Positions 39,517-56,062 of a stretch of 64,000 nt of DNA are shown piece after piece. The DNA is from Betaproteobacteria bacterium (GTDB lineage Bacteria > Bdellovibrionota_B > Oligoflexia > Silvanigrellales > Silvanigrellaceae). Positions within the stretch are counted from its first letter, which is position 1; each line of letters starts with the position of its first letter. The notes below the pieces were generated by a model. The model was not told the DNA's origin, made no database searches, and worked only from the letters and a program-made list of their open reading frames with translations. The translations under genes and the position numbers were made by a program. The DNA lies in assembly GCA_016868315.1 (NCBI GenBank), contig VGHE01000014.1:1-64000 (forward strand), written 5' to 3'.

Positions 39517-39903
39517 GTGAGCAAACTGACTTTGGTGATCAGAATTATCTTTGGCCTGACTTTCTTTGTTTTTGGACTCAACGGTTTTCTGAACTTTCTG
39601 CCGCAGCAACCCTTTCCCGAGGGAGTGGCAGGAGAATACATCAAGATTCTTCTCAATACCGGTTATTTCTTTCCATTGCTGAAACTGGTTGAGGTAGTCT
39701 GTGGACTTGCGATCCTGGCGGGCTTCTTTGTGCCACTGGCATTGGTTATCATTGCGCCCGTTGTCATACATATTAATTTTTTCCACATCTTCCTCACACC
39801 ACCTATTGGGCTTGGCCTAATTCTCTTGGCCATGAACGTCTATCTCGGTTGGGCATATAGGAAGAGCTTCACCGAAGTCCTGAAAATGAAAACGGCACTG
39901 TGA
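39517..39903 (+). CDS. DoxX-family membrane protein
   Basis: 128 residues starting at GTG with AAGGAG 6 bp upstream. Four hydrophobic helices with typical DoxX features: RIIFGLTFFVFGLNGFLNFL in helix 1, a polar loop, KLVEVVCGLAILAGFFVPLA in helices 2-3, and a C-terminal helix LGLILLAMNVYLGWAYR. DoxX proteins are small inner-membrane proteins linked to quinone-related redox or detoxification. Encoded just upstream of the copper/redox island but separated by its own strong terminator. Confidence 0.88.
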   Translation: MSKLTLVIRIIFGLTFFVFGLNGFLNFLPQQPFPEGVAGEYIKILLNTGYFFPLLKLVEVVCGLAILAGFFVPLALVIIAPVVIHINFFHIFLTPPIGLGLILLAMNVYLGWAYRKSFTEVLKMKTAL

Positions 39904-39918
39904 GTGCCGTTTTTTTTT
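39891..39918 (+). terminator. Strong intrinsic terminator of the DoxX gene
   Basis: AACGGCAC (39,891-39,898) pairs with GTGCCGTT (39,904-39,911) around a 5-nt loop holding the stop codon, followed by a run of eight or nine T. It separates the DoxX gene from the downstream operon. Confidence 0.92.
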
Positions 39919-40026: not shown

Positions 40027-40482
40027 ATGAAAACTTCATTGTGGTTTCTGGCCGTATTTTTACTCAGCCCCATGGTCGCTGCTTGTGATGAAAATTCTTC
40101 CCACAAATCCACACATGCTGAGCATGGCACTACTCAGAATCAGGAAGCTCGCGGAAAATTCTTTAAAGCCAAAATCACAAGTTGGACAGCCGGACCAGAG
40201 GTGAGTGGCGATTCCATCGATGAAATCAAAAACGCATGCCAAATTGAAATCACAACGCCTGATGGACAAGTTCCAGCAAGCCTAAGTGTACAGGATATTT
40301 TTCCATACATGAAAGTTCATGGCCATGGTGCCCCCGACGAGCAAATTACCTTTACCATTGAGGGAAATAAGGTCAGCGTGAATAGAATCGCCTTCACCAT
40401 GAGCGGCCCTTGGGAGCTGCACATCAAGGCAACTGTTAACGGACAAAGCGAAGAATTAGAAATCCCCGTTGTCGTGCCCTGA
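40027..40482 (+). CDS. FixH/YtkA-like lipoprotein
   Basis: 151 residues from ATG 40,027 (GGAG upstream; the frame is open a few codons further). Lipobox MVAA-C followed by a His-rich spacer (SSHKSTHAEHGTTQ) suited to metal binding. The domain (about 50-151) has the Ig-like FixH/YtkA pattern: IEITTPDGQVPASLSVQDIF, YMKVHGHGAPDEQI, FTMSGPWELHIKATVNG. Such domains occur with copper handling and cbb3 oxidase assembly. First gene of a tight run with the CxxC barrel and thioredoxin-like genes, upstream of RegBA and MbnPH. A role in periplasmic copper delivery is inferred from this context. Confidence 0.75.
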   Translation: MKTSLWFLAVFLLSPMVAACDENSSHKSTHAEHGTTQNQEARGKFFKAKITSWTAGPEVSGDSIDEIKNACQIEITTPDGQVPASLSVQDIFPYMKVHGHGAPDEQITFTIEGNKVSVNRIAFTMSGPWELHIKATVNGQSEELEIPVVVP

Positions 40483-40497
40483 GAGAAAGGAAGACGC

Positions 40498-41406
40498 ATG
40501 CGAACCCAAGCACTCACTTCGCACGCCTTGCGCGCTTTGGCAGTCCTCAGTTTATGTGCTTTTCAATTCGGTGAAGCAAAAGCATGCGCTTCTTGTGGAA
40601 GTGGAAGCGACGACCCACTCGTACTCTGGCCTAACGAACAGCTTAAAACCTATGTGGGCGTCTCAACCAGCGGGAACTTTGAAACCGTCGATACGAGAGG
40701 AACGACGGGGAAGGAGTCTGGGCCGAAATCACGCGATGCGATGACGTTTGCAGTGGGCAAAGCGCTCCGCAACGACCTGTTCTTCACGCTTACCGTTCCT
40801 GTACAGCAGAATCGCCTAGGAAGGGACTCGCTCCGCAGCGTTGGCGATCCGATGGTCGCAGGGCGCTGGTCGTGGCTCTTGCCCGACTTCACCGAGCCGC
40901 TTCAACCGCAAATCCAGCTGATGGCTTATTACAAGTTTGCGCACGCAAAGGCTCTGCAGGAATCCGAACGCCTCGATCTCCTCGATGCATTTGGCACGGG
41001 AATACCCGAAACCAAATTGGGCATCGACACGTTCTGGGGACAATCTAAACTCAAAGGGGGCTTTGCCATCGCAGCCCTGTTTCCAGCGGAAAGAATGCTC
41101 GGGAGAGCGCAGGTGTTTCCTGGAAATTGCTTGAAGACGACCTCAACTTTGGGGATGTCTCTGGGTGGTGACAACAAGTTGCTGGCAGGAATGGTGCGTG
41201 AAATGCGCGAGAAACGGCGCAACAATGGCACACGTGTTTCCGACAGCGAAATTCTCGCTCACTCCGTTTTCATGACACTCGACTGGTCGCCCGCCGCACG
41301 ACACATGGTACGATTCACAGTATCTGACAAGGGCAGGATTTTCGCGAACCGCAACATGATTGCAGCTACGTCAGCAAGCGTGGCCTGGTTGGCGACCTGG
41401 GAGTAA
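40498..41406 (+). CDS. Outer-membrane barrel protein with N-terminal CxxC
   Basis: 302 residues, ATG with AAAGGAAG upstream, 15 bp behind the FixH-like gene. Signal peptide ends in FQFGEAKA, and the mature N-terminus begins CASCGSGSDDPLVLWPNEQL, a CxxC next to an acidic patch. The remainder alternates amphipathic strands (LKTYVGVSTSGNF, DLFFTLTVPVQQNRL, RWSWLLPDF, IQLMAYYKFAHA, KLKGGFAIAALF, HMVRFTVSDKGRI), as expected for a beta-barrel porin or transporter. The CxxC may bind copper or be a thioredoxin substrate. Substrate unknown. Confidence 0.75.
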   Translation: MRTQALTSHALRALAVLSLCAFQFGEAKACASCGSGSDDPLVLWPNEQLKTYVGVSTSGNFETVDTRGTTGKESGPKSRDAMTFAVGKALRNDLFFTLTVPVQQNRLGRDSLRSVGDPMVAGRWSWLLPDFTEPLQPQIQLMAYYKFAHAKALQESERLDLLDAFGTGIPETKLGIDTFWGQSKLKGGFAIAALFPAERMLGRAQVFPGNCLKTTSTLGMSLGGDNKLLAGMVREMREKRRNNGTRVSDSEILAHSVFMTLDWSPAARHMVRFTVSDKGRIFANRNMIAATSASVAWLATWE

Positions 41407-41417
41407 AAACAACTCAA

Positions 41418-41828
41418 ATGATGCCCATAAGAGCGATCATAGTGTGGACGGATGTCATATTGCTGCTGGCAGTAGCGGCTCCGCACGCGTCTGCGAATAC
41501 TCAAGCTCCGGCTCAACACATCACGTGCCCCCCACTCGACCGCGCGGGGCTGTTGAATTTGGTTCAGGCTTCACCCAACAAGGAATTGCAACTTGTCTTC
41601 TTCTCGGGCTGGTGCAGCGAATGCGCTGTTCATCTCAACAACTTAAACAATCAAACAGCTGTCCTGGTGGGTATTTTCGACAAACAGCCCCGCATCGAGA
41701 AGGTGGTTGGCAAATTGAAACTTGCAAATCCCTGTTACACAGACTCAGGCATCGGAAAAATTCTTGACGTAAAAACCGTTCCCACAGAGCGCCGTGTAAC
41801 TTTGGAAATGCTGCTGAAACTGAAGTAA
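41418..41828 (+). CDS. Thioredoxin-fold periplasmic protein
   Basis: 136 residues, 11 bp after the barrel gene. Signal peptide (VILLLAVAAPHASA). A thioredoxin-like motif LQLVFFSGWCSECAVHL places the CxxC pair at Cys66 and Cys69. VLVGIFDKQPRIEKVV and KTVPTERRVTLEMLLKL resemble the later strand and the cis-Pro region (TVPT) of the fold. Two extra Cys (HITCPPL, ANPCYTD) may pair. Probable thiol-disulfide oxidoreductase serving neighbouring Cys/heme proteins. TlpA- or Sco-like function is possible but no metal-ligand His is obvious. Confidence 0.8.
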   Translation: MMPIRAIIVWTDVILLLAVAAPHASANTQAPAQHITCPPLDRAGLLNLVQASPNKELQLVFFSGWCSECAVHLNNLNNQTAVLVGIFDKQPRIEKVVGKLKLANPCYTDSGIGKILDVKTVPTERRVTLEMLLKLK

Positions 41829-41854
41829 TGCACAAAAATAAAGCCAAACATAGG

Positions 41855-41919
41855 CTCGCCGCAACAATCTGCTGCGTTACCTAAATTTCACGATTGTTGT
41901 AGCTTTCCGTAAAGGCGAG
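41855..41919 (+). promoter_or_regulatory. Nested hairpin in the leader of the regB gene
   Basis: CTCGCC (41,855-41,860) pairs with GGCGAG (41,914-41,919), and inside it CAACAATC (41,862-41,869) pairs perfectly with GATTGTTG (41,892-41,899). The structure lies 35 bp before the regB start, in the 125-bp gap after the thioredoxin-like gene. It may be a transcript end, a leader regulator or a dyad operator. Confidence 0.5.
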
Positions 41920-41953
41920 TCCTCACGGACTCTCATGCTACACCGGAGAGCCC

Positions 41954-43189
41954 ATGACCAACGACCAACGGCATCTGAAATTCATTCTATCTCTCCGCTG
42001 GATTGCTGTTCTGACGCAAATTCTCATCTTGTTTCCGGCACTCAAACTCGGATGGCTGCAAGAACACACACGCCTCCCTGCAGTTCTCATTGTTGCCACT
42101 CTGGCTGCGCTTAACGCTGCAAGCACCTTGGCTGAGCGCACCCGCTTGATTCGTCCAACTCAGGGATATTTGCTGACACAACTCAGTCTGGATCTTTTCT
42201 CATTCTGCGGTCTGCTGTGGTTGAGTGGCGGTGCTTGGAATCCATTCGTTGTCATGATTTTCTTTCACGCCGCACTCGGAGCTTTGCTGCTCCAGGGACT
42301 TTATCTTATCTTTTTCGTCTTGATGATGCTGTGGTCAACAACCGCACTCTATTCTAATCCACTGCTTCCCCCTCCCGTTCTTGGAAACAGTCTGCAGAGC
42401 GTTATCCTCTACCCGGTTCATATGAGTGTCATGCTCGGACTCGTGGGGCTTATTTCCTGGATTTCAACAAGGCTTGAACGAAAACGCAGAGAATTTGAAA
42501 TAGCACAGTCCGAACTGCAGCAGCGCGACCACCTGCGTGCATTCGGAGTTATCGCAACAGGATTCTCGCACGAATTCGCGACACCATTATCAACACTCAA
42601 GATCCGCCTGAATCGATTAGCGCGATTCCATCCGGAGCTCGAAGACAATGAGGATCTCAATGAGGCACTACATGCAGCGGACAAATGCGAAGAAAGGCTG
42701 CGTGCACTGCTCAATCGGAGGGGCGATCTTTCCGATTGCAAATTCGAAAAAATCGACCTGCGCCATGAACTGATGGAACTGCAAAAGACCTGGCCGTCTT
42801 CGCAATCACAACTGAGCGTCGAGTTCCCCAACTCACCACTTGAGGTAAAGACTCCATTGCCAGCATTTCGCCAAGTGATTGCCGATCTCTTGGAGAATGC
42901 TCAACAAGCCAATCCCGGGGGACCAATCAGACTCGTAGCAACTGAAATCCCAGGCACGGGGCTGGCAGAAGTACGGGTCGAAGATCACGGCTCTGGAGTG
43001 CCTTCATTTATCAGAGAGCACCTCGGGGAACCGTTCTTCACAGCCCGTGAAAATGGGAACGGCCTGGGACTCTTTAATGCCTTCACCTTTGCAAAGGCCA
43101 TGGGAGGAAGACTGGAAATCAGTGACCGCTCGGAGGGTGGAGCCAAAATATCCCTTCAAATTCCGATGCTCGTTCCGCAAATCAATTGA
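41954..43189 (+). CDS. regB: RegB/PrrB-type redox-sensing histidine kinase
   Basis: 411 residues: six membrane helices (about 10-172), HisKA with SHEFATPLSTLKIRLNRL (phospho-acceptor His206), and an ATPase domain with LLENAQQAN, VEDHGSGV and NGLGLFNAF. Two hallmarks of RegB are conserved: the quinone-sensing heptad GGAWNPF (GGxxNPF, 92-98) and a Cys in the dimer helix (DKCEERL, Cys245), equivalent to the redox-active Cys of RegB. It therefore probably senses ubiquinol pool or oxygen status and phosphorylates the RegA encoded 11 bp downstream. Start ATG follows GGAGAG. Placement next to MbnPH and thiol/copper proteins suggests the island is redox-regulated. Confidence 0.93.
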   Translation: MTNDQRHLKFILSLRWIAVLTQILILFPALKLGWLQEHTRLPAVLIVATLAALNAASTLAERTRLIRPTQGYLLTQLSLDLFSFCGLLWLSGGAWNPFVVMIFFHAALGALLLQGLYLIFFVLMMLWSTTALYSNPLLPPPVLGNSLQSVILYPVHMSVMLGLVGLISWISTRLERKRREFEIAQSELQQRDHLRAFGVIATGFSHEFATPLSTLKIRLNRLARFHPELEDNEDLNEALHAADKCEERLRALLNRRGDLSDCKFEKIDLRHELMELQKTWPSSQSQLSVEFPNSPLEVKTPLPAFRQVIADLLENAQQANPGGPIRLVATEIPGTGLAEVRVEDHGSGVPSFIREHLGEPFFTARENGNGLGLFNAFTFAKAMGGRLEISDRSEGGAKISLQIPMLVPQIN

Positions 43190-43200
43190 GCGAATAACAA

Positions 43201-43743
43201 ATGCAAAAGCGACTTCTCATTCTCGATGATGATCCCGACTTCAGAAAGGCTTTGGGACTTGAATTCAGCGAACGGGGCTACAGTGTCACTCTAGCGGATA
43301 CCGTTAGCACTGCACGTGCTCTTCTCGACAGCGGTGAGATTTTCGACTTTGCCATACTCGATCTTCGCGTTAAATCTGAGCTAAGTCTTGACTTATTGAA
43401 GGAAATCATTGCAACAAATCGTTGCTGTCGGACAGTCATTCTGACAGGCTACCCCTCGACAGCGACCACAGTTCAGGCGATCAAGAATGGCGCGGTCAAC
43501 TACCTTCTGAAGCCATCTTCAATTGAATTGATTGAACAGGCGCTTTGGCTTGAGGGCGTAGGTACAGATTTCAATTTCGAAGCATCTGATACCCAATCGA
43601 TGACGCTTGCGCATTATGAGTTTGAACTGATCGAATTTGTGCTCGGGCAATGCAATGGAAATATCACACACGCTGCGCAGCGACTCGGATTGCACAGGCA
43701 AAGTCTGCAAAGGAAGATTAAAAAAGGTTCGCCAAGAAACTGA
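43201..43743 (+). CDS. regA: RegA/PrrA/ActR-type response regulator
   Basis: 180 residues, 11 bp after regB. Receiver domain with acidic pocket LILDDDPDF, phospho-acceptor Asp54 (FAILDLRVKSELSLDLL), ILTGYPSTATTVQAIKNGA and Lys in YLLKPSS. The C-terminus is a Fis-type helix-turn-helix (NITHAAQRLGLHRQSLQRKI) with the LGxHRxxLQRK core typical of RegA. In proteobacteria RegA controls oxidases, hydrogenases and cytochromes in response to redox. Followed 11 bp later by the MbnP gene with its own AAGGA site, so regBA-mbnPH look like one transcript. Confidence 0.93.
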   Translation: MQKRLLILDDDPDFRKALGLEFSERGYSVTLADTVSTARALLDSGEIFDFAILDLRVKSELSLDLLKEIIATNRCCRTVILTGYPSTATTVQAIKNGAVNYLLKPSSIELIEQALWLEGVGTDFNFEASDTQSMTLAHYEFELIEFVLGQCNGNITHAAQRLGLHRQSLQRKIKKGSPRN

Positions 43744-43754
43744 AAGGAACTCGG

Positions 43755-45227
43755 ATGCTAAAGTTCAATAGAATATCAGAATTACTCGCATACTGCGCAC
43801 TAACGCTGCTTAGTGTAGCACTCTCTTGCGGAAAAAAGGAAAGCCCATCCTCGGCAACAACCGACAAACAGCTGATTGAGATTCCCTTCCGTGCAACGGT
43901 GGGTGATGAAGATTTTGATTGCAATAAGAACTACACACTCGGCACCGACAACACCCAGGTTCAACCCAAAGATTTCCGCTATTTCGTGAGCGACATCAGA
44001 TTTATTAGAGCAGACGGCAGCAAAGAAACACTCGAACTCGAACAAGACGGCAAATGGCAAACTGGAAACGTTGCCTTGCTCGACTATGCAACAACTGACG
44101 CCAATTGTGCAAAGTCAACTTCACCGGACAGTGAAACACGCAAAGTTGTGCGAGGAGTCATCAAAAGAGGCGAATACACCGGAATTGAGTTTGCACTAGG
44201 ACTCGACGACAAAACCAACCATCTCGATTCAGCAACAGCACAGCCACCGCTTAACAATCCGGGCATGTGGTGGTCTTGGAAGGGCGGCTACAAAGAGGTT
44301 CGGCTTGAGCTCACTATCCTTTCTGATGGAGCAGCGAAAAATAAAGATTACTTGGTGCATCATGGTGCCACAAATTGTTCGGGCAATTCACCCGAGACAT
44401 ACAAGTGCACACATGAAAACAACCTCACAGTGACCCTTTCCGGGAACCCTCTGGCATCGGGCGTGAAGTTCGACATTGCCAAATATTTTGAGGGCGAGAA
44501 AGTGCAAGAGGAGCTGACCCAAAATCTCACCACAAGGCAACTCGGAGTGGTCAGCAACCCAAGCATTAGGGGTTGCATGGCGTTTGTCTTAGATGGTGAC
44601 TGCGAAATCCTGTTCGCAAACCTCGGTCTCACCTTCAAGGATGCGGTTGGCGGATTCACACCGAGCCAGAAGGCATTCACGCTGTTCGCAAGCACAACCA
44701 CAACACAAAATGGTGATCCCTCGAGCATCAAAACAGATGCCAACACTTGCACCGATGAGAAGAAAAGGTCTGTGGGCGACAACTGTTACTTGCGCGACAC
44801 TGCGCTGAATGTGAACCTTGAGGTTGGAGATAGCAATCATGCTTCTGGAGCAAATGGATTTGTAAGCCACAATGCTGGCCAAGCCTGTATCAGCTGCCAC
44901 CAGAGCAAAGGCCCCGGAAAGGGCCTGCACACCTTTTCTGGTACCGTCTACAAAGCCGACCAGAGCACTCCTGTTGCGGGCGCGAAGGTTCGGATTTACA
45001 ACGATTCTGCGCGAACAAACCTCGTCAAAGAGTTTGTGACCGACAAGAGCGGAAACTTCTATTCCACCTCCGACTATCTCGCTCAACTGACAAATGCAAA
45101 CAAGGAATACTGGGTCAGTGTTGTTGATTCTGATGGCACCGGCGAGAAAAAAATGATGTCTCCAAAAATCACGGGACAATGTAGCCAGTGTCATGTGGGC
45201 GGACAGAGAATTTGGATAAACAAGTAA
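43755..45227 (+). CDS. MbnP-like copper-binding lipoprotein with fused C-terminal CxxCH segment
   Basis: 490 residues. Lipobox VALS-C25. Residues 40-300 match the MbnP family (metallo-mystery pair, four-Cys type): RYFVSDIRFIRADG, WQTGNVALLDYA, RGVIKRGEYTGIEFALGL, NHLDSATAQPPLNNPG and the WxW site MWWSWKGGYK (Trp173, Trp175). The four Cys are at 56, 118, 208 and 218. In the characterised pair, MbnH oxidises an MbnP Trp to kynurenine, which helps bind copper. Unusually, the protein continues for about 120 residues with CISCH (378-382), a carboxypeptidase-regulatory-like beta domain (HTFSGTVYKADQSTPVAGAK) and CSQCH (476-480), two potential c-heme sites. Its neighbour encodes MbnH. Substrate metal is inferred. 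Confidence 0.92.
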   Translation: MLKFNRISELLAYCALTLLSVALSCGKKESPSSATTDKQLIEIPFRATVGDEDFDCNKNYTLGTDNTQVQPKDFRYFVSDIRFIRADGSKETLELEQDGKWQTGNVALLDYATTDANCAKSTSPDSETRKVVRGVIKRGEYTGIEFALGLDDKTNHLDSATAQPPLNNPGMWWSWKGGYKEVRLELTILSDGAAKNKDYLVHHGATNCSGNSPETYKCTHENNLTVTLSGNPLASGVKFDIAKYFEGEKVQEELTQNLTTRQLGVVSNPSIRGCMAFVLDGDCEILFANLGLTFKDAVGGFTPSQKAFTLFASTTTTQNGDPSSIKTDANTCTDEKKRSVGDNCYLRDTALNVNLEVGDSNHASGANGFVSHNAGQACISCHQSKGPGKGLHTFSGTVYKADQSTPVAGAKVRIYNDSARTNLVKEFVTDKSGNFYSTSDYLAQLTNANKEYWVSVVDSDGTGEKKMMSPKITGQCSQCHVGGQRIWINK

Positions 45228-45286
45228 TTGCCAATACTGAGTCGAGACTAAATATTTGCAAGCGAAAACATTTGAGAGGCGCTGTC

Positions 45287-46354
45287 TTGCAGCGTTCCCT
45301 TCTTTGTTTTGCCGTATTTATTTTTGGACTGACCTGCTCAAAACAAGTGTTTGCCCAGCCTCTGTCGAAGAAGGCTGAGTGGGGTAAAGCCCTGTTTTTT
45401 GAACCACGGCTTTCAGCGAATGGGAAGATTTCCTGTGCCACCTGTCACGAAACGCAACGGGCATTCACCGAAAGCAGAGCCACATCCAAAGACATTGAAG
45501 GTCACTCCGTTCATAGAAATTCTCCGACACTCATCAATTCAGCTCACATGGATATCTTGACTTGGTCGAATCCTGTGCTTCGCAAGCTTGAGAACCAGAT
45601 CATTGTGCCATTGTTTCTCGACACTCCCGGCGAAATGGCACTCATCCGTGTTTGGCCAAAAGTACGCTCAGAAGTTCTGGAGAAGTCACCACACATTGAG
45701 ATGTTCCGTAACGCGTTTCCCGAGGAAAGAGGAACACCCGACACGCGCCATTTGTTTTCTGCACTGGCTGAATTTGTACGGACACTCGAGGCATTCGACA
45801 GCCCCTATGATCGTTTTCTCGCAGGCGAAAAAAATGCACTGAGTTCCGGTGCTCTTCGGGGGCGGGAGTTATTCTTCTCTCAGCGCACAAACTGTGGTTC
45901 CTGCCACTCGGGAGTCCTGCTCAGCAATGCCGCAAAAAAAGAGTTTCTCATTGCCAAAGATCCACTGGCTCTGCCTGCCGTAAAGGACGAAGAAGGAAAC
46001 GTTCTGCAGTTTGCTCACAATGGACTTTTCAACTGGGATGGCAAAGGCGGTGTTCCTGAAAAGCATGAAGGCCTTTATGAGTTCTCTTTGAAACTGGGAG
46101 ACCGAGGTAAGTTCAGAATCCCCCCGTTGCGCAACGTAGCCCGCACGCCTCCCTACATGCACGATGGTAGCATCTCGACCCTCGAGGCAGTTGTTGAGCA
46201 TTACAACCTCGGCGGAACACACCGCTGTATGAAGAAAAGGGGCTGCGTTCCGGCACCACAGAAACACGCTCTCATTCGTCCCTTGTTCCTATCAGCCAGC
46301 GAAAAACAGGCTTTGGTCGAATTTCTAAAGTCGCTATCTACCCGGAAATTCTGA
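45287..46354 (+). CDS. MbnH-like diheme MauG/cytochrome c peroxidase-family enzyme
   Basis: 355 residues from TTG 45,287, chosen because GAGAGG precedes it by 7 bp and a signal peptide (SLLCFAVFIFGLTCSKQVFA) follows. The frame is open upstream to a GTG that would overlap mbnP by 40 bp. Two c-heme sites, CATCH (50-54) and CGSCH (203-207), and the family C-terminus PPYMHDGSISTLEAVVEHYN define a bacterial diheme peroxidase/MauG fold; pairing with MbnP identifies the MbnH branch. Expected reaction: formation of a high-valent diheme state that oxidises a Trp of MbnP to kynurenine in the periplasm. Last gene of the regBA-mbnPH run. Confidence 0.92.
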   Translation: MQRSLLCFAVFIFGLTCSKQVFAQPLSKKAEWGKALFFEPRLSANGKISCATCHETQRAFTESRATSKDIEGHSVHRNSPTLINSAHMDILTWSNPVLRKLENQIIVPLFLDTPGEMALIRVWPKVRSEVLEKSPHIEMFRNAFPEERGTPDTRHLFSALAEFVRTLEAFDSPYDRFLAGEKNALSSGALRGRELFFSQRTNCGSCHSGVLLSNAAKKEFLIAKDPLALPAVKDEEGNVLQFAHNGLFNWDGKGGVPEKHEGLYEFSLKLGDRGKFRIPPLRNVARTPPYMHDGSISTLEAVVEHYNLGGTHRCMKKRGCVPAPQKHALIRPLFLSASEKQALVEFLKSLSTRKF

Positions 46355-46688
46355 ACTTCAACTCCGACGGAGAGAGAAAACTCTGAAATTTAAAATATTC
46401 TCTGTTTGCTTCTTAAGAACTACAATTTACTAATTTCGTCGGCACACCGTTTCGGAAGCAGATCGGATGTTTTCTTGTATTGAGTCTCGTAAGAAATTCC
46501 CTTTTCCTCGCCTTTAACAACTCAATGATCTCCTTAAGCTCAAGGAAGGTTCACCCTCAGAGCAGACCTAATCGCTTGGGAGATAACCCCTGACATTTTC
46601 GATTGGTAATTACACTTAAGTCTGAATTGCCTCAACTTTCAGAGCGAAAGATCCGATTGGAGTTTAAAAAAAACTGAGGAAAAGCCTG
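46355..46688. other. Intergenic region of 334 bp
   Basis: No gene, RNA or strong terminator recognised. Contains a short CTCCGACGGAG dyad right after mbnH and A/T-rich sequence toward the next gene, where a promoter is expected. Confidence 0.4.
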
Positions 46689-47930
46689 ATGCGAAGCAAT
46701 AAGGTGTTTGATGCAGGCTCCAACGCACGACGTCGTGCGGTTCATGCACGATCGACTGCCTGGTGGAAGTCGCTGCTCCTTGCGAACGGCGCCTTTCTTA
46801 TTGCAGTTTCGTGTTCCAATGCTTCTCAGAGTCTGACCGTTCCGGGCAGTTTCGATGGCAAGAATTCAAAGAGTATTGCCGGTGCCGGAGCAGATGCATC
46901 ACAAGTGTCGGGCTCGGTTGAACTTGGCCTCACACCGCTCGACGTGGCAGGCAGTCCGCTGGACTTAATTAAAGGCTTCAATCATATTGCGTTTGTCGAA
47001 CGCGAACTGCTCGTGGGCAGCAGCACCATTGCAGCAGGTGCCATTCCCCTTGCGAAGGGTCTATTCGGTGCTCCTGCTCCGCTCCCGTTGCCACCCTTTG
47101 CTTCTGGAAAAGCCTACCTTCCATTGCGTGCAGATGGTTCAGAGTTTTGGCTCGTGGAATCTCCCGAGGGCAGAACAATTCTCACACGCTCGTTGGAGGC
47201 CGCGGTTCTGCCGCTCGGACAAACGTTGCCGAAAAACGTAAAAATAACCATAGATAGCCCGACTTCTTTGATTGGATTCGGTAAAAATTTTGTAATGTTT
47301 GTTTCGAGCAACTCCCTTTGGATTGCTGAATTTGCAGCAGGTAAACTCAAGGCCTCGTCCGTTCCGCTCCCGAACTCGGATTTCAAGCCCGTTTCAGCCG
47401 GAGCGCTTGGCGAAGCTGCGCGCTCTTTTTGGATTGCAGAGTCCGACACAATTTGGACCGTTGTTGGAAGCGCTGATGAATGGAAAGCGAAGAAGTTCGA
47501 ATTGAACGGAAAAGCAGGTTCCTTTGCACTTGAGAAATTCGCGGCACTTGTTGAACTATCGCAGGGAAGTCCAAAGCTGGCTGGCGCTGCCGTTGCAGTC
47601 ATGAATGCAAAGATTTATTCCGCTGGTGTGACTCTGCCACAAACGCCCAGCACCCTTCCTTCTCCCGTTGCAAGCGCTCCACCGATGCCAAATGTGGGAG
47701 CCATGACTTTTGCCGAGGCACGTGCCCTGTGTGACTCATGTCACGCGACATCCTCAAGCAACACACCCGCCAAGGCGAAGCTGACCGGAACAGAAAATAT
47801 TACGACTTGGGTCAACAGAAAAGAGGCTATCATCAACTCCGTGCGCGATGATGTCATGCCGCTTGGGACGCGCCTCACAGAACCCAACAAAACGCGTTTC
47901 TTAAATTTTGCACAAGATCCCAAACTATGA
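46689..47930 (+). CDS. Lipoprotein with C-terminal monoheme cytochrome c domain
   Basis: 413 residues; ATG with GAGGA upstream. Arg-rich n-region then LLLANGAFLIAVS-C, a lipobox. The central part (about 70-310) is made of repeated beta-strand segments such as FNHIAFVERELLVGSS, GSEFWLVESPEG and RSFWIAESDTIWTVVGS, suggesting a propeller or beta-sandwich. A Pro-rich linker (TLPSPVASAPPMPN) joins a compact heme domain with ARALCDSCHAT (heme site 348-352) and DVMPLGTRL, whose Met is a likely axial ligand. Probably a membrane-tethered periplasmic electron carrier or partner for the diheme enzyme encoded upstream. Confidence 0.8.
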   Translation: MRSNKVFDAGSNARRRAVHARSTAWWKSLLLANGAFLIAVSCSNASQSLTVPGSFDGKNSKSIAGAGADASQVSGSVELGLTPLDVAGSPLDLIKGFNHIAFVERELLVGSSTIAAGAIPLAKGLFGAPAPLPLPPFASGKAYLPLRADGSEFWLVESPEGRTILTRSLEAAVLPLGQTLPKNVKITIDSPTSLIGFGKNFVMFVSSNSLWIAEFAAGKLKASSVPLPNSDFKPVSAGALGEAARSFWIAESDTIWTVVGSADEWKAKKFELNGKAGSFALEKFAALVELSQGSPKLAGAAVAVMNAKIYSAGVTLPQTPSTLPSPVASAPPMPNVGAMTFAEARALCDSCHATSSSNTPAKAKLTGTENITTWVNRKEAIINSVRDDVMPLGTRLTEPNKTRFLNFAQDPKL

Positions 47931-47973
47931 ATTTGAATGAGTCGATCTGATAAAGGATCTGTTCGGGGGAAAA

Positions 47974-48918
47974 ATGAAAAACAAGATTCACATGATTTAC
48001 ACGGTTCTAGGTATCGTTGTGGCTTGTGGACCAGCTCAGCTTTCCTCTGAAACAAGCAACGCCAGCACAAAGAAAAGTGGAACAAAGGGAAGCGCCGATG
48101 GCAGCGCGACGGACGGTCAGATTTTGAAGGCTGAAAAAACAATTGAATCGTCGACCTCATCTGGCGAATCCGATGGGTCAGCTGGCGACTCTGCACCAAG
48201 CGTGACGCTCTCGTTTGCATCGCCAGAGCTCAGCCTACATCAAGGCGAAAGCAAAGAAATTGAAGTCAAAGTGAGAAGCTCAAAACCAAACGGATCTGTA
48301 AGCATCACTCCGCCTTCAATTCAAGGTTTACAATTCGAGTTGCTCACGGCCATGGGCTCAACAATGGCTGCAGCACTTCCTTTGGATGCATCGGGCAACG
48401 GCACATTTAAATTAAAAGTCACATCACCCTTTCGCATCGCAGCAGGGCTCGTCACTGCACCAGGATCACTCAACGCAAACCTGGATTTGCGCGGCAGTAG
48501 CGATGCAGGTGCATTCTCGGCAGTACTTCCCATCAAGGTCTCCAACGTTGCTGTGTACGTGATGTCTGGAGTGACGAATGTGCGAGAATTGCCGGCTCGG
48601 TTCGAGTTTCCCGCAGGAACCATCCCCGTCTTTGCAAACCCGAGCAACAGACAAGTCGTTAGTGTGATGCACTTCCAGGGTGGCAGCCAAGCCAACCCGT
48701 TCAGACACCAAGCCGTGATGGGTGATATGCCCATGGGCTCGGGTTACTGCCCGTTGAATACCTCAACCAGTGCTCTCGTTCCCCTGGGGGGAGCCATAAA
48801 CGCAGCGTGCTTGTCCTGCCCCGCAGAGGCGACCGCTGACATCACAGGAACATTTTACAACCACGAAACCGAGAATAACACCCAATCACGAACCATTGTC
48901 TGTAAGCGGAAGATTTAG
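47974..48918 (+). CDS. Lipoprotein, possible cupredoxin-like C-terminus
   Basis: 314 residues with lipobox IVVA-C. A Ser/Thr/Gly-rich spacer of about 60 residues leads to an Ig-like beta domain (VTLSFASPELSLHQGESKEI). The C-terminal 110 residues contain a Met/His-rich stretch, VVSVMHFQGG and NPFRHQAVMGDMPMGSGYCP, plus CLSCP, reminiscent of copper-binding loops in cupredoxins, though the strict His-Cys-His-Met order is not convincing. Lies 43 bp after the cytochrome lipoprotein and 15 bp before another lipoprotein, so probably part of the same operon. Function unknown; copper binding is a guess from residues and neighbours. Confidence 0.72.
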   Translation: MKNKIHMIYTVLGIVVACGPAQLSSETSNASTKKSGTKGSADGSATDGQILKAEKTIESSTSSGESDGSAGDSAPSVTLSFASPELSLHQGESKEIEVKVRSSKPNGSVSITPPSIQGLQFELLTAMGSTMAAALPLDASGNGTFKLKVTSPFRIAAGLVTAPGSLNANLDLRGSSDAGAFSAVLPIKVSNVAVYVMSGVTNVRELPARFEFPAGTIPVFANPSNRQVVSVMHFQGGSQANPFRHQAVMGDMPMGSGYCPLNTSTSALVPLGGAINAACLSCPAEATADITGTFYNHETENNTQSRTIVCKRKI

Positions 48919-48933
48919 GAAAAGGGTGAACAG

Positions 48934-49629
48934 ATGGTGCACCTGCTTCAACATAAGCGAATCGGCTTAGTGTTGCAGTTGTCTGCAATGGCCTGCATTG
49001 CAGTTGCCTGTAAGTCAAAGTTTCATGAGACAAACACAAGTAGCGACTTTCAGTCTACCAGGCCAACTGACCCGAAAAGCTCCACGCAATCTGATGCCCC
49101 TCTGCCAACAGGTTTAGTGCGCCTTGACGAAATCAGGAATTTTGTCGAGCAGCGGCAACGTATTAATTCCTCACCACTTAAAAAAATGTATTCCTTCGAG
49201 TCTTATTGTCTCGACTATTCGGCTCTCTGGCTCAAAGAGCTGCAGCAGAGCCCATTTAAGGGCTATCTTCAACAGACTCAGGGCGTGCATTTCTTCACAA
49301 TCGACCGCAAGAAGGTCATGCGTTCACCAACTCATTTCTTCATTGCATTCAATCCAAAAACAACCGACGAGATTATCCTCGATGTAACCTACGGTCAGTT
49401 TATTTTGGGTGCTGAAAGTCTTGCTCTTGATCCAATTCTGCTTGCAAAGACTTCCGAAATCGAAAACATCTTCTCAAAATACAAAAGCCGTATCAGGATT
49501 AAGACGTCCAGCGACGACTTCATTGGACGGTATGATCCTCAGGAAGCTACAGAACTCATTTATTCAACAGGCCGTTTCTCGAAGAACCGCACTTCTTTCG
49601 ATTCAGATACCAAGACCACACTTGAGTAG
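48934..49629 (+). CDS. Lipoprotein with possible Cys-His-Asp hydrolase fold
   Basis: 231 residues. Lipobox IAVA-C. After a Ser/Thr/Pro-rich spacer, SYCLDYSALWLKELQQ places a Cys at the start of a helix. THFFIAFNPKTTDEIILDVT then places a His on a strand and an Asp on the next, the order seen in papain/transglutaminase-like enzymes. This is motif-level inference; no family was recognised. Starts 15 bp downstream of the previous lipoprotein gene. Confidence 0.7.
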   Translation: MVHLLQHKRIGLVLQLSAMACIAVACKSKFHETNTSSDFQSTRPTDPKSSTQSDAPLPTGLVRLDEIRNFVEQRQRINSSPLKKMYSFESYCLDYSALWLKELQQSPFKGYLQQTQGVHFFTIDRKKVMRSPTHFFIAFNPKTTDEIILDVTYGQFILGAESLALDPILLAKTSEIENIFSKYKSRIRIKTSSDDFIGRYDPQEATELIYSTGRFSKNRTSFDSDTKTTLE

Positions 49630-50322: not shown

Positions 50323-52314
50323 CTATTGATTCGATTTGGGCAGCTTCGCAAGCAGCTGCTGCGCCTGGCGGCCGATCTGAGGATTGGTATCGCGGCTGAA
50401 TTCACTCAAAGTTGTATTTACCTCTTGCGGATTCAAAACCACTTGGTGCGCGATCGTGTGCAGGGCTTCAACCCGAACTGTCGCACGTGAATCGGAGGTA
50501 CGGGCAACTGCAGTCGCAGCTTCAAGATTGCCGCGTGCAGGTGCACGCATGCGCATAACGCGCAGTGATTGAATCACGAGGTCACCATCGCTGCCTTTGT
50601 CGGTGCTGATTTTTTGCAACCAGACATCAACTGATGGGTCGGAAACAAAGCGCAAATCATAGATAGCCGAGCGCTGCAGAGCAGGCTCCTGTGTGGAAGT
50701 CATGAGAGTCTTCACACTCGCCAAGGTCTCCTGCGCACCGGCATTTCCCAGTGCTCCAGAGAGAGTGACCTTGCGCGCTGTGGACGGGGCAGCATCGAAA
50801 TCACGCGCCAGCCTTGAAACGGCCTCCTGATTCAAATCAGGACGATTTTTTTGTGCACGCTGTGCAAAGGTTCCAAGTGCGAGAGTTGAAGTTGATTTCA
50901 CCTCATCTGTAATACCATTCTCATATTGCTGCAGCAGTGCATCGCGGGTCTTCTCGCCTGGGCGGCGGTGTGCAGCCATGGCTGGAATGATTTGCATCAA
51001 AGCATCGGTGTCGTTGCTCATGCGCTGTGCCAGGGCAACAATTGCTGCTTCGGCCTCTGGTGTTTCCTGATTCGAGAAAGCGCCAGCAAGCAATGACAAC
51101 TTGCTCGCATAATGAGGGTCATCTTTCTTGAGCTGTGCCATTTCCTCGGCGACAGCCGTACAGATTTCAGGCTGCAAAAACATGAGCGCAGAGAGCTGTT
51201 CAAGAAACTGGAAACGCGCAGCTCCGTCTTTGTGAAAGTCAGCGCTCTGCAGCCGTTGCCGCAAAGATTCCCAAGTTTCACCACCCAGTTTTTGCGCAGC
51301 CACCTTCTTCTTCAGACCCTCTTCACTGGCCGCCTCCAATTCAGCTTCACTCATGAGATCTTGTGTGGTCGGCTGCTCGGGAGAAGATTCTACTTCACCC
51401 TCGTTCTGAGCAACAGAACGCTTTCCGACAAACTCCATGCGGGTAAAAATGTTCGTGGTGGCATAAACGCCCGCCGCCTGGAAACGCAGGGTCCAACGTT
51501 GTTCAGCTTTCAGAACATGGCCGGCCTGGGCATCGAAGGTGAGGCGCGTCAGGGAGCTTGGCAAAACTGCGAGTGCATCGCTTTCTGCATTCAGTGCACG
51601 TGAACCCGAATGAGCCTGCACAGACTTAGGCTCTTTCTCAATTTCCGCGACTCCATTCTTCAATGAGACAAGACGATTGGTGAGCGTGAAAACACCCGTG
51701 GAGTCGGACTCCTGAGAGATCCACTCGGAGAGTTGCTGCTGCGCTGGAAGAAAAAGAGAGCCGGCAAGGACTATGGAACGAATGAGGTTCAAGCTCTCGA
51801 GACTCGTGCCACGCGATGCACTGAAGCGCAGGTCTCGGCGGAGTTCATCGGTTCGCACAACAACAAAAGCTGTGGATAGAGATTTCTTAACTGCATCGAT
51901 ATCTTGGGGCGCCATTGCAGGCTGCCCCTGTGCATTGGTGCTCTGGAAGTCGACCTCTTTCAGGTGATAGCGATAAAGACGCTTGCCCTGCGAAGCCTCA
52001 AGGAGCTGCTCGTCGAGCTGTGAGCGCAGCTGAATCTGCGATACAGCCGGTTTGCCCTCGGAGGACTGCAGTTCAATGGATACATCTTGCAGAACCGACC
52101 AAGTGCGCACTTCATTCAAAGTTGCGCTGTGACTCAATAGCCCTAAAGCAGTTGTTGCTGTTTCACTTGTTTGCACACCACTCAGGGCAGACGATGTTGA
52201 AGGAGCAGAGGCCTCGCGGCTGCGGGCGAAATACACACCCGCAGCGAGCAAAAAAATGACAAGCGCACCCGTGAGAATCTTTCCGCGAGAGACGAGGAGA
52301 TTTTTACGAGTCAC
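50323..52314 (-). CDS. Membrane-anchored HEAT/vitellogenin-N (MTP)-like lipid-transfer-type protein
   Basis: 663 residues starting at GTG, which overlaps the upstream LGFP gene's TGA by 4 bp. One N-terminal helix (ILTGALVIFLLAAGVYFA) anchors it. Residues about 60-330 are beta-rich (LDEQLLEASQGKRLYRYHLK, LKAEQRWTLRFQAAGVY). Residues 350-660 are an alpha-alpha superhelix with HEAT spacing. Signatures of the vitellogenin-N/microsomal transfer protein fold are visible: STLALGTFAQRA, TLSGALGNAGAQETLASVK and LQRSAIYDLRF (compare LGNAG and R-x-A-I-x-x-LR). This large lipid-transfer fold is best known in animals. The sequence supports homology only at motif level. Confidence 0.72.
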   Translation of the reverse strand: MTRKNLLVSRGKILTGALVIFLLAAGVYFARSREASAPSTSSALSGVQTSETATTALGLLSHSATLNEVRTWSVLQDVSIELQSSEGKPAVSQIQLRSQLDEQLLEASQGKRLYRYHLKEVDFQSTNAQGQPAMAPQDIDAVKKSLSTAFVVVRTDELRRDLRFSASRGTSLESLNLIRSIVLAGSLFLPAQQQLSEWISQESDSTGVFTLTNRLVSLKNGVAEIEKEPKSVQAHSGSRALNAESDALAVLPSSLTRLTFDAQAGHVLKAEQRWTLRFQAAGVYATTNIFTRMEFVGKRSVAQNEGEVESSPEQPTTQDLMSEAELEAASEEGLKKKVAAQKLGGETWESLRQRLQSADFHKDGAARFQFLEQLSALMFLQPEICTAVAEEMAQLKKDDPHYASKLSLLAGAFSNQETPEAEAAIVALAQRMSNDTDALMQIIPAMAAHRRPGEKTRDALLQQYENGITDEVKSTSTLALGTFAQRAQKNRPDLNQEAVSRLARDFDAAPSTARKVTLSGALGNAGAQETLASVKTLMTSTQEPALQRSAIYDLRFVSDPSVDVWLQKISTDKGSDGDLVIQSLRVMRMRAPARGNLEAATAVARTSDSRATVRVEALHTIAHQVVLNPQEVNTTLSEFSRDTNPQIGRQAQQLLAKLPKSNQ

Positions 52315-54686
52315 TCGGCATCCTCAACCAGAAGAGCGTTAGCATCGTTGTCTGAGTCTATGCCATTAGGATTCACCGGTGGCATAGGGCGTGGAAGTGG
52401 CATTGGCAGCGGCATTGGAACGCGCCCGATGGGCAAATTCACACGCGGTGGCAATTTGATAGGTGTCAGCGAGCACTGGTGCACGATGCCAACATTACGG
52501 CAAATGCCTGGTCCACATTCTTGTTTGTGGGTCACGGAACCGCCTTCGAAGTCCTGCACGTACGTATTGACAACACCAGGCACATTGCCCAATCCGGGCA
52601 TGTTAACGGTTGTAGAACGTGATTCGGTTATGCGCTGATCATTCTTTGGATAACCCAAGCATCCACGTTCCCAATTGAGAGATTCCCAACGGTCGCGGAT
52701 GGCTCCGCGCACGATCCATGTGCCGAATTCAGGATGGTAGTAAACCGAGCCACCTTCAAAGTGGTTGAACCGACCAACGCCATCTGGAGTTTGCCACTCA
52801 TCGGTAACAGGAAATCCAAGCACACCACGTTCCCACTGTGCATCAGCCCATTTGTTACGAATCAGGCCACGCACTTCAAAAGCACCATGCTCAGGGGTCC
52901 AATATATGGAGCCATTCTGGAAGTGGTTGTAACGACCGCGTCCATTTGGAGTCGTGAGTTCATCGGTCGTTGGGTATCCCAGAAGCCCCATGCCACGACG
53001 CAACGCAGCCCACTTCTGATAAATTTTGCCCTTCACGAGGAACGCATTCCCGGTAGAAGGATGATACCAAAGCGAACCACCTTGGAAGTGACTGTATTTG
53101 CCTTGACCATCGCCCGCCGTGAGCTCGTCGCTCGTTGGAAATCCGAGTTCACCCTGCTCCCAACCTTTAGCACCCCACTTGCTGCGGATGAGGCCAAGAA
53201 CAACGTGTGCGCCGGTGTTTTCAGACCAGTAGATGGATCCACCGTTGTAATGCCGAAAGAGACCCGGACGCGCTGCAGGTGTTTGCGATTCAGGACTCGT
53301 CGGCGCACCAAGGAAGCCTGAGGCTCCGTTGAGCTGACGATATTTCCAACCAATATAGTCGCGCAGTGGGAGGCTTTCGCGTTGATTGAAGATTGCGAGA
53401 TTCTCTTGGAATCCGGCCCATGAGAAAAGTGTTTTCTCCCATCGCTCGCTATCGAGCCAGTAGTCGATTTCCGCAAAGAGACCAACACGCCCGCTCAGCG
53501 CATCGAAGTTGGCGTTCACGCCGAGTTCAGCCGTGAGTTTTGGATCGGCAGACACCATGTCGTATTTCACGTTGGCATCAACCGGGATACTCACACCAAC
53601 GAATTTTATCGAACCAAAAACACCCGCCGATGCAATGTAGGCATCAACAGCTGCGTCTACATTTCCGTAGGTGTCGAGATAAGGACGCACGAGGCCGGTG
53701 ACGAGCTTTTCGCCCACAAGACCACGGATGTCGTACTGGGCACCCAAACGGCCACCCACGCTGCCACCCACCGAAAGAGGAACGGGTCCAAGCCAAAAGC
53801 GCGCACGCGCACCTTCGGAACGGTCAAAACCCTTGTCGCCTGAGAAGGTCGGCGAGGTTGCATCCCACACTTTCTGACCAAACACGGAAACATATGCGTA
53901 GGAATTCTCTCCCGTGGCATTGTGCGCCTGCGCATCGAACACGGAGATGTTTTCTTTAAGCAGCGCGCCCTTCACCGTGAGGCTGGCATCGGCACGCTGG
54001 TTGTCTTTGTTGACCTTCACGCCGAATCCCGCGTTTGCATCAACACCGAAATACTCGTTGCCCATGGCGCGCGCGTAGCCACCCGAAAACTCTGCCGAGC
54101 GATCTTTGAACTGAGGAGTGTCTTCCACCTGACCAGGATTTTTAAATGCGTCGCCCTGATATTTCAGAGCCTGCAGATGGGCGAGATCCATTGGAATCTG
54201 ACCCACACGCACGTTGCGGTTCTTGGTGGGGCTCTGCTGATTGAATTCTTTGAAAAGCATGTTCGCAAAAATTGGGCTGCGACCAGCAAAGATTTGATAT
54301 TCGTTGCGTTGCTCCGCTGCCCAGGTGTTCATCGCATTCTGAACTTCCGAGAGCGACATGTTCTTCGCGCCGTCAACATCGCCTTTATCGGTGAAGTTAC
54401 CAATGGTCACGAGCGTTTCAGGGCGAAGTTGCGAGAGTGGCAATCTCGGCAATCGCGTTTGGATAGGCGTAACGATTTTAATAGGTATAGTTTTGAGCAA
54501 GTACGAGTGCCGAATGACCGGCAACTTGGCTGGATCAATCAAGATAGGCGGACGCGCTGGGAGATTGGGGTTAGGGAGAGGCCGCGGGATGTTGTCGGCG
54601 ACCGCCCGACCCACGCACACAGATAGCCCCGCAACGGCGAGCACAGACCAGACCGCTGCTCCATTGAAGCTCCCAGAATTTTTCAT
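52311..54686 (-). CDS. Secreted LGFP-repeat protein
   Basis: About 791 residues from ATG 54,686 (GGGGA upstream); the frame is open 65 codons more but a signal peptide (WSVLAVAGLSVCVGRAVA) only follows this ATG. A Pro-rich segment and a beta-rich central domain (about 150-440, with GYARAMGNEYFGVDANAGFG and VPLSVGGSVGGRLGAQYDIR) precede five LGFP repeats. Each has a W...LG(F/Y/A)P core, then hFxgGSIYW and a GAhxVxGxI strand. LGFP repeats bind cell-wall or surface glycans in other bacteria. The Cys-rich end finishes with a Pro/Met tail (PMPLPMPLPRPMPP). Translationally coupled to the vitellogenin-like protein, suggesting a joint envelope function. Confidence 0.88.
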   Translation of the reverse strand: MKNSGSFNGAAVWSVLAVAGLSVCVGRAVADNIPRPLPNPNLPARPPILIDPAKLPVIRHSYLLKTIPIKIVTPIQTRLPRLPLSQLRPETLVTIGNFTDKGDVDGAKNMSLSEVQNAMNTWAAEQRNEYQIFAGRSPIFANMLFKEFNQQSPTKNRNVRVGQIPMDLAHLQALKYQGDAFKNPGQVEDTPQFKDRSAEFSGGYARAMGNEYFGVDANAGFGVKVNKDNQRADASLTVKGALLKENISVFDAQAHNATGENSYAYVSVFGQKVWDATSPTFSGDKGFDRSEGARARFWLGPVPLSVGGSVGGRLGAQYDIRGLVGEKLVTGLVRPYLDTYGNVDAAVDAYIASAGVFGSIKFVGVSIPVDANVKYDMVSADPKLTAELGVNANFDALSGRVGLFAEIDYWLDSERWEKTLFSWAGFQENLAIFNQRESLPLRDYIGWKYRQLNGASGFLGAPTSPESQTPAARPGLFRHYNGGSIYWSENTGAHVVLGLIRSKWGAKGWEQGELGFPTSDELTAGDGQGKYSHFQGGSLWYHPSTGNAFLVKGKIYQKWAALRRGMGLLGYPTTDELTTPNGRGRYNHFQNGSIYWTPEHGAFEVRGLIRNKWADAQWERGVLGFPVTDEWQTPDGVGRFNHFEGGSVYYHPEFGTWIVRGAIRDRWESLNWERGCLGYPKNDQRITESRSTTVNMPGLGNVPGVVNTYVQDFEGGSVTHKQECGPGICRNVGIVHQCSLTPIKLPPRVNLPIGRVPMPLPMPLPRPMPPVNPNGIDSDNDANALLVEDAE

Positions 54687-54838
54687 TTTTCCCCAGTGTT
54701 TACGCGAAGTACATAATGTATCCGTTCTCGGATACAACAACACTGGCCGATTGGTCAAACTTTCTCGGCGAACTTTTTTAATCAATTTTTTCAGCAGTTT
54801 GCTTGTGCATCCAGACGACCGAAAAAGGAACAAGATTC

Positions 54839-56062
54839 TCAAAACGGTCCAGCAACAAAACCAAGGTGATCTGAAGGCCAAAGAATCGACGCATCCGCGG
54901 GTGCAGCTGAAGCTGTTTCCGGAAACAGCTGCGCCTCGCGCGGTGTCATGCCTTTAAGAAAAAGATAGTCGATGCGCGATGAAGCGGTCTTTTGTTGTGC
55001 GGTGGTGCTTTGCCCTCCGGTATGACCAGGCTGCCCTGGATTCACGGTGCTCCAGGCATCCGCGAACCCCCATTTCAAAAACTCTGCACGCACAGCACCA
55101 TCTTCCGGAGAATTGCAGTCACAGGACACCGCGACGGGTGCATTCTTTTTCTCAACCACCTGATTGATGTACTCGTTGATTTGTGTGGCTTGCCTGACCT
55201 GTGATTTCACCGATTCGCTGGTGATGTTCGTATAGAAGTGAGAGTTGAAGAAATGAAAAGAGCGACCCTGTAGAAGCATTTCAGCGCGCATCACAATACG
55301 CGATTCGCCAGCAGCCCAGCTTCGACACCGATCGGATGTGCACAACGGCAATTCACTCAAAACACGCGCACTCACCCGCCGCGCACCCACAGAACCAAAA
55401 GGCAAACGCGAAACAATCGCATCGCCCATGAACCATGTTGTTTGTGCGAGCTTCTTGGTATTTGCATCTTGAGTGGAATAGGCCGCAGACAACGGTCCTC
55501 CACCACCCACACTCACATCCGGTTCTATCGCCGCATGGGGGTTGGATCGAAAGAAACACCAATACCAGTTCTCGCCCGTAAGTTCCGACAAACGGCGCGC
55601 GAGAACATCCGCACTGTTCCCCCAGGGAACCATATCTTCAGCTTCTTGAATTCCAATCACATCCGCCTGCACCTTTTGAATGTTTGAGGCGATCTGCTCA
55701 ATGCGTGCATTCAAAGATGGGAGTGATGTAGCGAACGCACCCAGCATGTTGAAGGTTGCAAAGCGCACCTGCTTGTTTGTGGAAGCATCAGCAACCGACT
55801 TTCCCAGCTGCGTTCCACACAGAGGCTGCTTTTCATTTACACCTTGAATAACAACGGGGTTATGTGATGGTACAGTCGTTGAACCAGTTCCATCAGATTG
55901 TCCCGGCACAGGCGCAGCCGTTGCAGGCAGGGGCATTGCAGCTTCCGGACTCGTGGAAGATTTCGCGCTGCCACTCAAAGAATTCTTTCTCTGAAGCATT
56001 TGACAGGAAATCGAAAGCAAACCAGCAAAGAGCGGTATGGAAAAAAGAACAACTCGATGCAT
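54839..56062 (-). CDS. DNase I-fold endonuclease/exonuclease/phosphatase lipoprotein
   Basis: About 407 residues from ATG 56,062 (GTG 6 bp earlier possible). Lipobox LLSIS-C. After a Ser/Thr/Pro spacer, motifs of the EEP superfamily appear in order: RFATFNMLGAF (Asn), DVIGIQEAEDM (catalytic Glu), HFFNSHFYTN (His), AVSCDCNSPEDG (where Asp-x-Asn is expected), SSRIDYLFLKG and WPSDHLGFVAGPF (terminal Asp-His pair). Members cleave DNA, RNA or phosphoesters with Mg. Secreted placement suggests extracellular nuclease or phosphatase. The 153 bp to the LGFP gene start is enough for independent transcription. Confidence 0.88.
   Translation of the reverse strand: MHRVVLFSIPLFAGLLSISCQMLQRKNSLSGSAKSSTSPEAAMPLPATAAPVPGQSDGTGSTTVPSHNPVVIQGVNEKQPLCGTQLGKSVADASTNKQVRFATFNMLGAFATSLPSLNARIEQIASNIQKVQADVIGIQEAEDMVPWGNSADVLARRLSELTGENWYWCFFRSNPHAAIEPDVSVGGGGPLSAAYSTQDANTKKLAQTTWFMGDAIVSRLPFGSVGARRVSARVLSELPLCTSDRCRSWAAGESRIVMRAEMLLQGRSFHFFNSHFYTNITSESVKSQVRQATQINEYINQVVEKKNAPVAVSCDCNSPEDGAVRAEFLKWGFADAWSTVNPGQPGHTGGQSTTAQQKTASSRIDYLFLKGMTPREAQLFPETASAAPADASILWPSDHLGFVAGPF

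Follow-up and report, generated by a model that had tools for sequence, protein, structure and literature searches.

A putative RegBA-linked copper-buffering island with MbnP/MbnH-like genes in Oligoflexia

A 64,000-nucleotide stretch (the window), part of contig 14 of a 3.24-Mb genome assigned to the Silvanigrellaceae (Oligoflexia, Bdellovibrionota), carries a run of genes encoding, in order from position 40027 to position 46354, a YtkA/FixH-like lipoprotein, a CxxC-containing beta-barrel, a thioredoxin-like protein, RegB, RegA, MbnP, and MbnH (Table 1). With middling confidence, and from sequence comparison, we interpret this run as a copper-buffering island of Oligoflexia, whose regBA-mbnPH half may be controlled by the adjacent RegBA two-component system. 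The run and a set of residues in its products are conserved in relatives, a palindromic box upstream of regB recurs in related islands, and bufferin-type genes take the place of MbnPH in some genomes. Each part of the island belongs to a known kind; no account of the combination was found in the open-access library searched.

Table 1. Features of the gene run in the window
Feature	Position	Strand	Basis
YtkA/FixH-like secreted lipoprotein	40027..40482	+	PxMxxHGHG and MSGPWE motifs; beside barrel across Oligoflexia
Outer-membrane beta-barrel, CASCG N-terminal segment	40498..41406	+	AlphaFold model, 21-sequence alignment
Thioredoxin-like secreted protein, WCSEC	41418..41828	+	CxxC; third gene of conserved cassette
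Proposed RegA box GCAACAATCTGCTGC	41861..41875	no strand	Palindrome common to relatives' islands; RegR-box layout
RegB-like histidine kinase, GGAWNPF, His206, Cys245	41954..43189	+	NF033792, alignment
RegA-like response regulator, Fis-type helix-turn-helix (HTH), Cys before HTH	43201..43743	+	NF033791, alignment
MbnP lipoprotein with fused C-terminal two-CxxCH domain	43755..45227	+	TIGR04052, PDB 7l6g
MbnH-type diheme protein, CATCH and CGSCH	45287..46354	+	CCP_MauG, TIGR04039, PDB 6e1c

All open reading frames (ORFs) named in an earlier note on this DNA were found by coordinate. That note had placed RegB in one transcript-like run with the MbnP/MbnH pair; regB, regA, mbnP, and mbnH are tightly spaced (gaps of 11, 11, and approximately 60 bp), and the three upstream genes (gaps of 15 and 11 bp) are split off by 125 bp before regB. 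Because of these gap sizes, the genes probably form two transcription units, 40027 to 41828 and 41954 to 46354; the 125-bp gap between them contains the candidate regulatory box. The run stops at 46354, and a gap of 334 bp lies beyond mbnH. Scans for sigma-70 promoters and terminators gave no signal above shuffled sequence, and an Rfam scan gave no match.

Conservation of the neighborhood, one of the points by which the earlier note had proposed to judge its reading, was found: two congeners keep the gene order, and rearranged forms occur in a different genus and in a different family, which shows that the run is not a chance assortment (genomes of relatives are labeled G, and loci in them L). 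The complete order was present in G002, and the same order in G001 until a contig end inside mbnP, with the C-terminal domain and mbnH on another contig. In G020, regBA is oriented away from fixH, the barrel gene, mbnP, the gene for the C-terminal domain, and mbnH. Two divergent mbnPH pairs in G003 are followed by fixH, a bufferin-type set (MNIO/DUF2063), and regBA, and in G021 and G028 regBA adjoins fixH-barrel-bufA-MNIO-DUF2063-Csp1, with no MbnPH at that locus. RegBA adjoins MbnP in 5 of the 10 genomes with MbnP; the G049 and G005 loci are interrupted by contig ends. Bufferin-type identities were assigned from matches to PF05114 (1e-80 to 1e-95), DUF2063 (1e-16), and TIGR04401 (Csp1, over cutoff). 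Since bufferin-type clusters lie beside RegBA in G021, G028, and G003, the regulator is kept and the chelator module changes. We regard as evenly poised the broader proposal of a modular copper-chelator island in Oligoflexia, in which RegBA, a GCAAC-N5-GYTGC operator, and the YtkA/barrel/thioredoxin cassette would be largely constant and the chelator would be swapped. The alternatives would be the kynurenine protein of the MbnP/MbnH pair, whose two-CxxCH partner is either fused or encoded separately, and a bufferin made by MNIO, so that a single redox/copper switch would govern two copper-binding chemistries that are unrelated to each other.

The window island shares with bufferin clusters (BufA/MNIO/DUF2063/DoxX) a slot beside RegBA, FixH, and the barrel, as seen in those three relatives, but contains neither a precursor nor an MNIO gene, and the MNIO genes of its genome lie elsewhere. 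A DoxX-family gene (39517 to 39903), which ends in a strong terminator-like hairpin (39888 to 39914), is located directly upstream of the window island; it is not kept upstream of the G001 and G002 islands. DoxX is a recognized component of bufferin clusters. Among the relatives, the Cys-rich, bufferin-like precursors at L039:10844-11566 and L018:15338-16186 end in a fused cytochrome c domain, which is unusual for the precursor of a ribosomally synthesized and posttranslationally modified peptide. Bufferins and Csp1 are linked to copper excess and storage and so favor protection or buffering (PMC12452194).

The candidate operator, GCAAC-N5-G(C/T)TGC, lies upstream of regB in the window, and the same palindrome precedes regB, fixH, mbnP, or bufA in related islands. 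It was first noticed on reading regB upstream regions, after which 11,264 palindromic 5-mer/spacer combinations were tested on 17 such regions. GCAAC-N5-GTTGC was found in 7 of the 17 with at most one mismatch (mean, 0.21), a highest count shared with two other palindromes, one an overlapping form of the same motif and the other an A/T-only motif. Each of 11 promoter regions inspected had GCARC-N5-GYTGC (0.02 sites expected from shuffles), a set partly picked after the motif was known; the ranking of 11,264 palindromes and the genome-wide site counts in G003 and G054 are the fairer tests. Five of the 41 genome-wide sites in G003 fall within one 10-kb stretch containing the mbnP divergon, bufA, and a pair of membrane cytochrome c genes, and 2 of the 17 sites in G054 (4.7 Mb) are separated by 78 bp in the region between divergent mbnP genes. 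The genome of the window has two copies of the strict form, GCAACANNNTGYTGC, upstream of regB and at C2:401613, where it falls within an unrelated coding frame and was rejected. Also not counted as boxes were a similar site at 43411 inside regA, which is coding and recurs at the same codons in G002, and a GCARC-type site in the cox stretch approximately 3 kb from the operon. The stretches inspected around the MNIO genes of this genome contained no exact box.

In its 5-N5-5 layout, the candidate box equals the RegR box of the literature (GNGRCRTTNNGNCGC) and has the 5-bp spacing of PrrA (PMC5506826); one base is changed in each half-site. RegA sites had been predicted upstream of both 41,954 and 40,027; the first prediction is matched by the palindrome, whereas no site with two or fewer mismatches precedes 40,027. 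The earlier proposal that the adjacent RegBA controls mbnPH gains support from comparative DNA, as a RegA-type palindrome precedes regB and two relatives have one directly upstream of mbnP. It is very unlikely, in our estimation, that the arrangement has no regulatory meaning, with RegBA and MbnPH neighbors by descent and the palindrome a chance motif or the target of another regulator. The base changes relative to the RegR box and the regB genes that have no box would fit that explanation, but RegBA-chelator islands of two families have the box, in a RegA-type layout, and the RegA recognition helix is changed to match the altered half-site (LHRQSLQR versus MHRRTLQR). In Silvanigrella-like genomes (L081:10809-11300 and L078:11207-11737), regB is divergent from a small MPDMGHG-motif protein resembling the FixH/YtkA-like lipoprotein, with a near-consensus RegA-type box in the L081 regB gap. 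RegBA is also adjoined, at L075:12940-15653 (G003) and L083:828-3234 (G020), by a pair of membrane proteins whose sole Pfam matches are cytochrome c domains at their C termini, and the G003 pair is preceded by two adjacent RegA-type boxes.

RegB and RegA of the window resemble the RegB/RegA systems (PrrB/PrrA, ActS/ActR, and RegS/RegR) in whole-length match, GGxxNPF motif, H-box, redox Cys, Fis-type HTH, Cys before the HTH, and 5-N5-5 candidate box. They differ in scoring below the equivalog cutoffs, in having MbnPH rather than senC as partners, in the half-site (GCAAC rather than GNGRC), and in the recognition helix. NF033792 was the best kinase model for RegB (133.6 bits, residues 7 to 404; cutoff, 350), and RegA matched NF033791 over its full length (117 bits; cutoff, 250). 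The quinone motif and redox Cys that the earlier note had reported in RegB are both in place: GGAWNPF is present in the window, G001, and G002 (GGPWNPF in G003), and Cys245, invariant in an alignment of 12 homologues and equivalent to Cys265, aligns with the redox Cys of Sinorhizobium meliloti ActS/RegB. His206 is the phospho-acceptor. The island RegA is the sole full-length RegA-like protein of the genome, and its LGQCNGN aligns with YEMCERN of ActR, so that the Cys just before the HTH corresponds to Cys156 of Rhodobacter capsulatus. A RegB tree clustered G003 with the window genus (support, 91/99) but gave no resolution of the deeper branching, and it thus does not establish a common ancestry of all RegBA-chelator islands.

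The signal perceived by RegBA may be redox, copper, or both. Conserved residues are the basis for the putative quinone/oxygen sensing by RegB. RegA of R. capsulatus binds copper, with Cu2+ and O2 driving a Cys156 disulfide, and alphaproteobacterial RegBA is linked to senC and hence to copper genes (PMC9147068). Because of that copper binding, and because the Cys of the Cu/O2 disulfide is conserved here, a copper signal is as plausible as quinone/oxygen for the island. A purely redox or respiratory island is improbable. In such an island, RegBA would sense nothing but quinone and oxygen, MbnPH and the cytochrome-like parts would work in electron transfer or in the handling of peroxide, and copper binding would be secondary. 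This reading would account for the RegB quinone motif and Cys, the box before the membrane cytochrome c pair of G003, the same pair by RegB in G020, a cbb3 oxidase near RegB in G034, and the cyoABCD-SURF1 genes adjoining the closest plasmid RegB homologues, but what the islands join to RegBA are modules that chelate or store copper, and RegB of the second-family islands has a degraded form of the strict quinone motif.

MbnP scored above the TIGR04052 cutoff (202 versus 140 bits), and its nearest PDB sequence was 7l6g, a "metallo-mystery pair" protein, with the WSW, NH, and HxGATxC regions aligned. MbnH matched CCP_MauG (Pfam, 7.5e-38) and, over its whole length, 6e1c, a di-heme enzyme and its nearest PDB sequence (5e-54); the score for TIGR04039, a hypothetical equivalog, was 294.7 bits (cutoff, 362.85). 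Because of a signal peptide and a Shine-Dalgarno sequence, its start is most likely the TTG at 45287, not the overlapping GTG at 45188. The pair resembles MbnP/MbnH elsewhere (MopE/SACCP and CorA/CorB) in the WxW region, His motifs, and Cys of MbnP and in the diheme partner encoded directly downstream. It differs in running with RegBA and the barrel cassette, in the absence of methanobactin or TonB genes from the window island, and in the domain with two CxxCH motifs that follows the MbnP domain in the 490-amino-acid protein. That domain is likewise fused in G002, G045, and G005; in G020 and G049, which belong to another family, a lipoprotein gene of its own encodes it and stands between mbnP and mbnH (L023/L024). 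Gene order and fusion suggest a joint function with MbnH, for example, in electron transfer. An AlphaFold model of full MbnP (predicted local distance difference test [pLDDT], 66) was too poor for a claim on the C-terminal fold. In plasmid records (L124:8012-9163, L125:7855-9024, and L127:7888-9048), the genes following mbnP, in the mbnH slot, are annotated as "methanobactin export MATE transporter MbnM," which is probably a naming error.

The direction of copper flow separates buffering from its main rival, copper acquisition, in which copper scarcity would induce the island and MbnP would scavenge copper for the oxidase, as proposed for CorA/MopE of methanotrophs; we consider this possible but less probable. 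MopE/CorA share the kynurenine-copper chemistry, bind Cu(I), and have a co-transcribed diheme protein, and they are copper-repressed (PMC3912023). The genome has an operon for a COX1-type oxidase that includes an SCO-like gene, and copper demand therefore exists. At five plasmid MbnPH loci of other phyla, the neighbors were TonB receptors, PCuAC/SCO, or methanobactin genes, which speaks for acquisition, with no RegBA alongside. The window island has no TonB receptor, however, and its relatives fill the slot with bufferin-type clusters and Csp1, which are tied to copper excess and storage. Extracytoplasmic copper buffering is therefore preferred.

The accessory set that the earlier note had regarded as dedicated to MbnPH was retained in part, in that the FixH/YtkA-like, barrel, and thioredoxin-like cassette is kept in many Oligoflexia. 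The barrel with its CASC and the WCSEC protein are present upstream as described, but the "FixH-like" label has no counterpart in Pfam, as neither the window lipoprotein nor two relatives matched the FixH model; lipoprotein relatives matched YtkA (PF13115) weakly, below cutoff. The barrel is a predicted 12-strand outer-membrane channel (AlphaFold pLDDT, 82) whose CASCG segment is invariant across 21 aligned relatives. The nearest solved folds are FapF and a COG4313 channel (template modeling score, about 0.65), from which the barrel differs in sequence (about 9 to 12% identity), in the added CASCG segment, and in gene company. A relative of the thioredoxin-like protein matched Pfam Thioredoxin_2 weakly, below cutoff. 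The barrel was found in 39 of the 58 genomes of the phylum examined, usually with FixH-like and thioredoxin-like genes and often with no RegBA nearby. Cassettes apart from RegBA adjoin Fur-family regulators (L041 and L042), extracytoplasmic function (ECF) sigma factors (L044 and L052), or a bufferin-type cluster (L053), and a Fur-family regulator is also upstream of the G002 island; such neighbors point to metal stress. No Pfam match to the anti-sigma factor NrsF was found beside the L044 and L052 cassettes. In G002 (L016:1727-4458), genes for ZrgA, a CobW/COG0523 GTPase, and the Fur-family regulator immediately precede the island, a context that suggests zinc or metal limitation.

Two downstream lipoproteins (46689 to 49629) had been included in the accessory set and are not supported as island members: they have no syntenic homologues in relatives and only a partial match elsewhere in G001. 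The second, described as Met/His-rich, has an ordinary composition (47974 to 48918; 2.9% Met and 1.6% His). Further downstream, the minus strand (52311 to 54881) encodes a large secreted protein with LGFP repeats (PF08310, 1e-82).

For the preferred copper-buffering island, each biochemical step is an inference from these comparisons, as are box binding by RegA, the nature of the signal, and the direction in which copper flows. MbnH would convert a Trp of MbnP to kynurenine, yielding a secreted Cu(I)-binding lipoprotein, and the two-CxxCH domain that MbnP carries may serve MbnH as an electron-transfer partner within the same protein. The lipoprotein of YtkA/FixH type, the CxxC barrel, and the thioredoxin-like protein may move copper or keep thiols reduced between the periplasm and the outer membrane. 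RegB, with its quinone motif and redox Cys, would phosphorylate RegA, which would bind the GCAAC-N5-GYTGC box upstream of regB and control regBA-mbnPH, including its own genes. The likely role would be extracytoplasmic copper buffering that follows the respiratory state. Several results weigh against this interpretation. RegB, RegA, and MbnH all score under curated equivalog cutoffs, and they are clear but divergent family relatives. The MopE/CorA relatives are copper-repressed and proposed for uptake (PMC3912023). The regB genes of G007, G012, G034, and G045 have no box within 300 bp upstream, and none precedes the fixH-barrel-trx unit of the window, so the cassette may be regulated differently. 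The BufA identity in relatives is a weak BufA2 match to Cys-rich, cytochrome-tailed precursors.

MbnP/MbnH pairs are widespread. No prior description of RegBA combined with MbnPH was found in the open-access library searched, where only three papers name both MbnP and MbnH and absence is no proof; neither MbnP/MbnH nor two-component systems are mentioned in the text of the bufferin survey. Because several genomes have a RegA-type box upstream of mbnP, the proposed regulation is directly testable, and the published copper binding of RegA provides a concrete hypothesis, that redox and copper signals meet in one regulator. The interchange of MbnPH and bufferin-type modules points to a function common to two different copper-binding chemistries. 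Together, these features suggest modular, redox-gated copper handling in Oligoflexia, in which the same switch and a shared DNA site are kept and the chelator is sometimes swapped.

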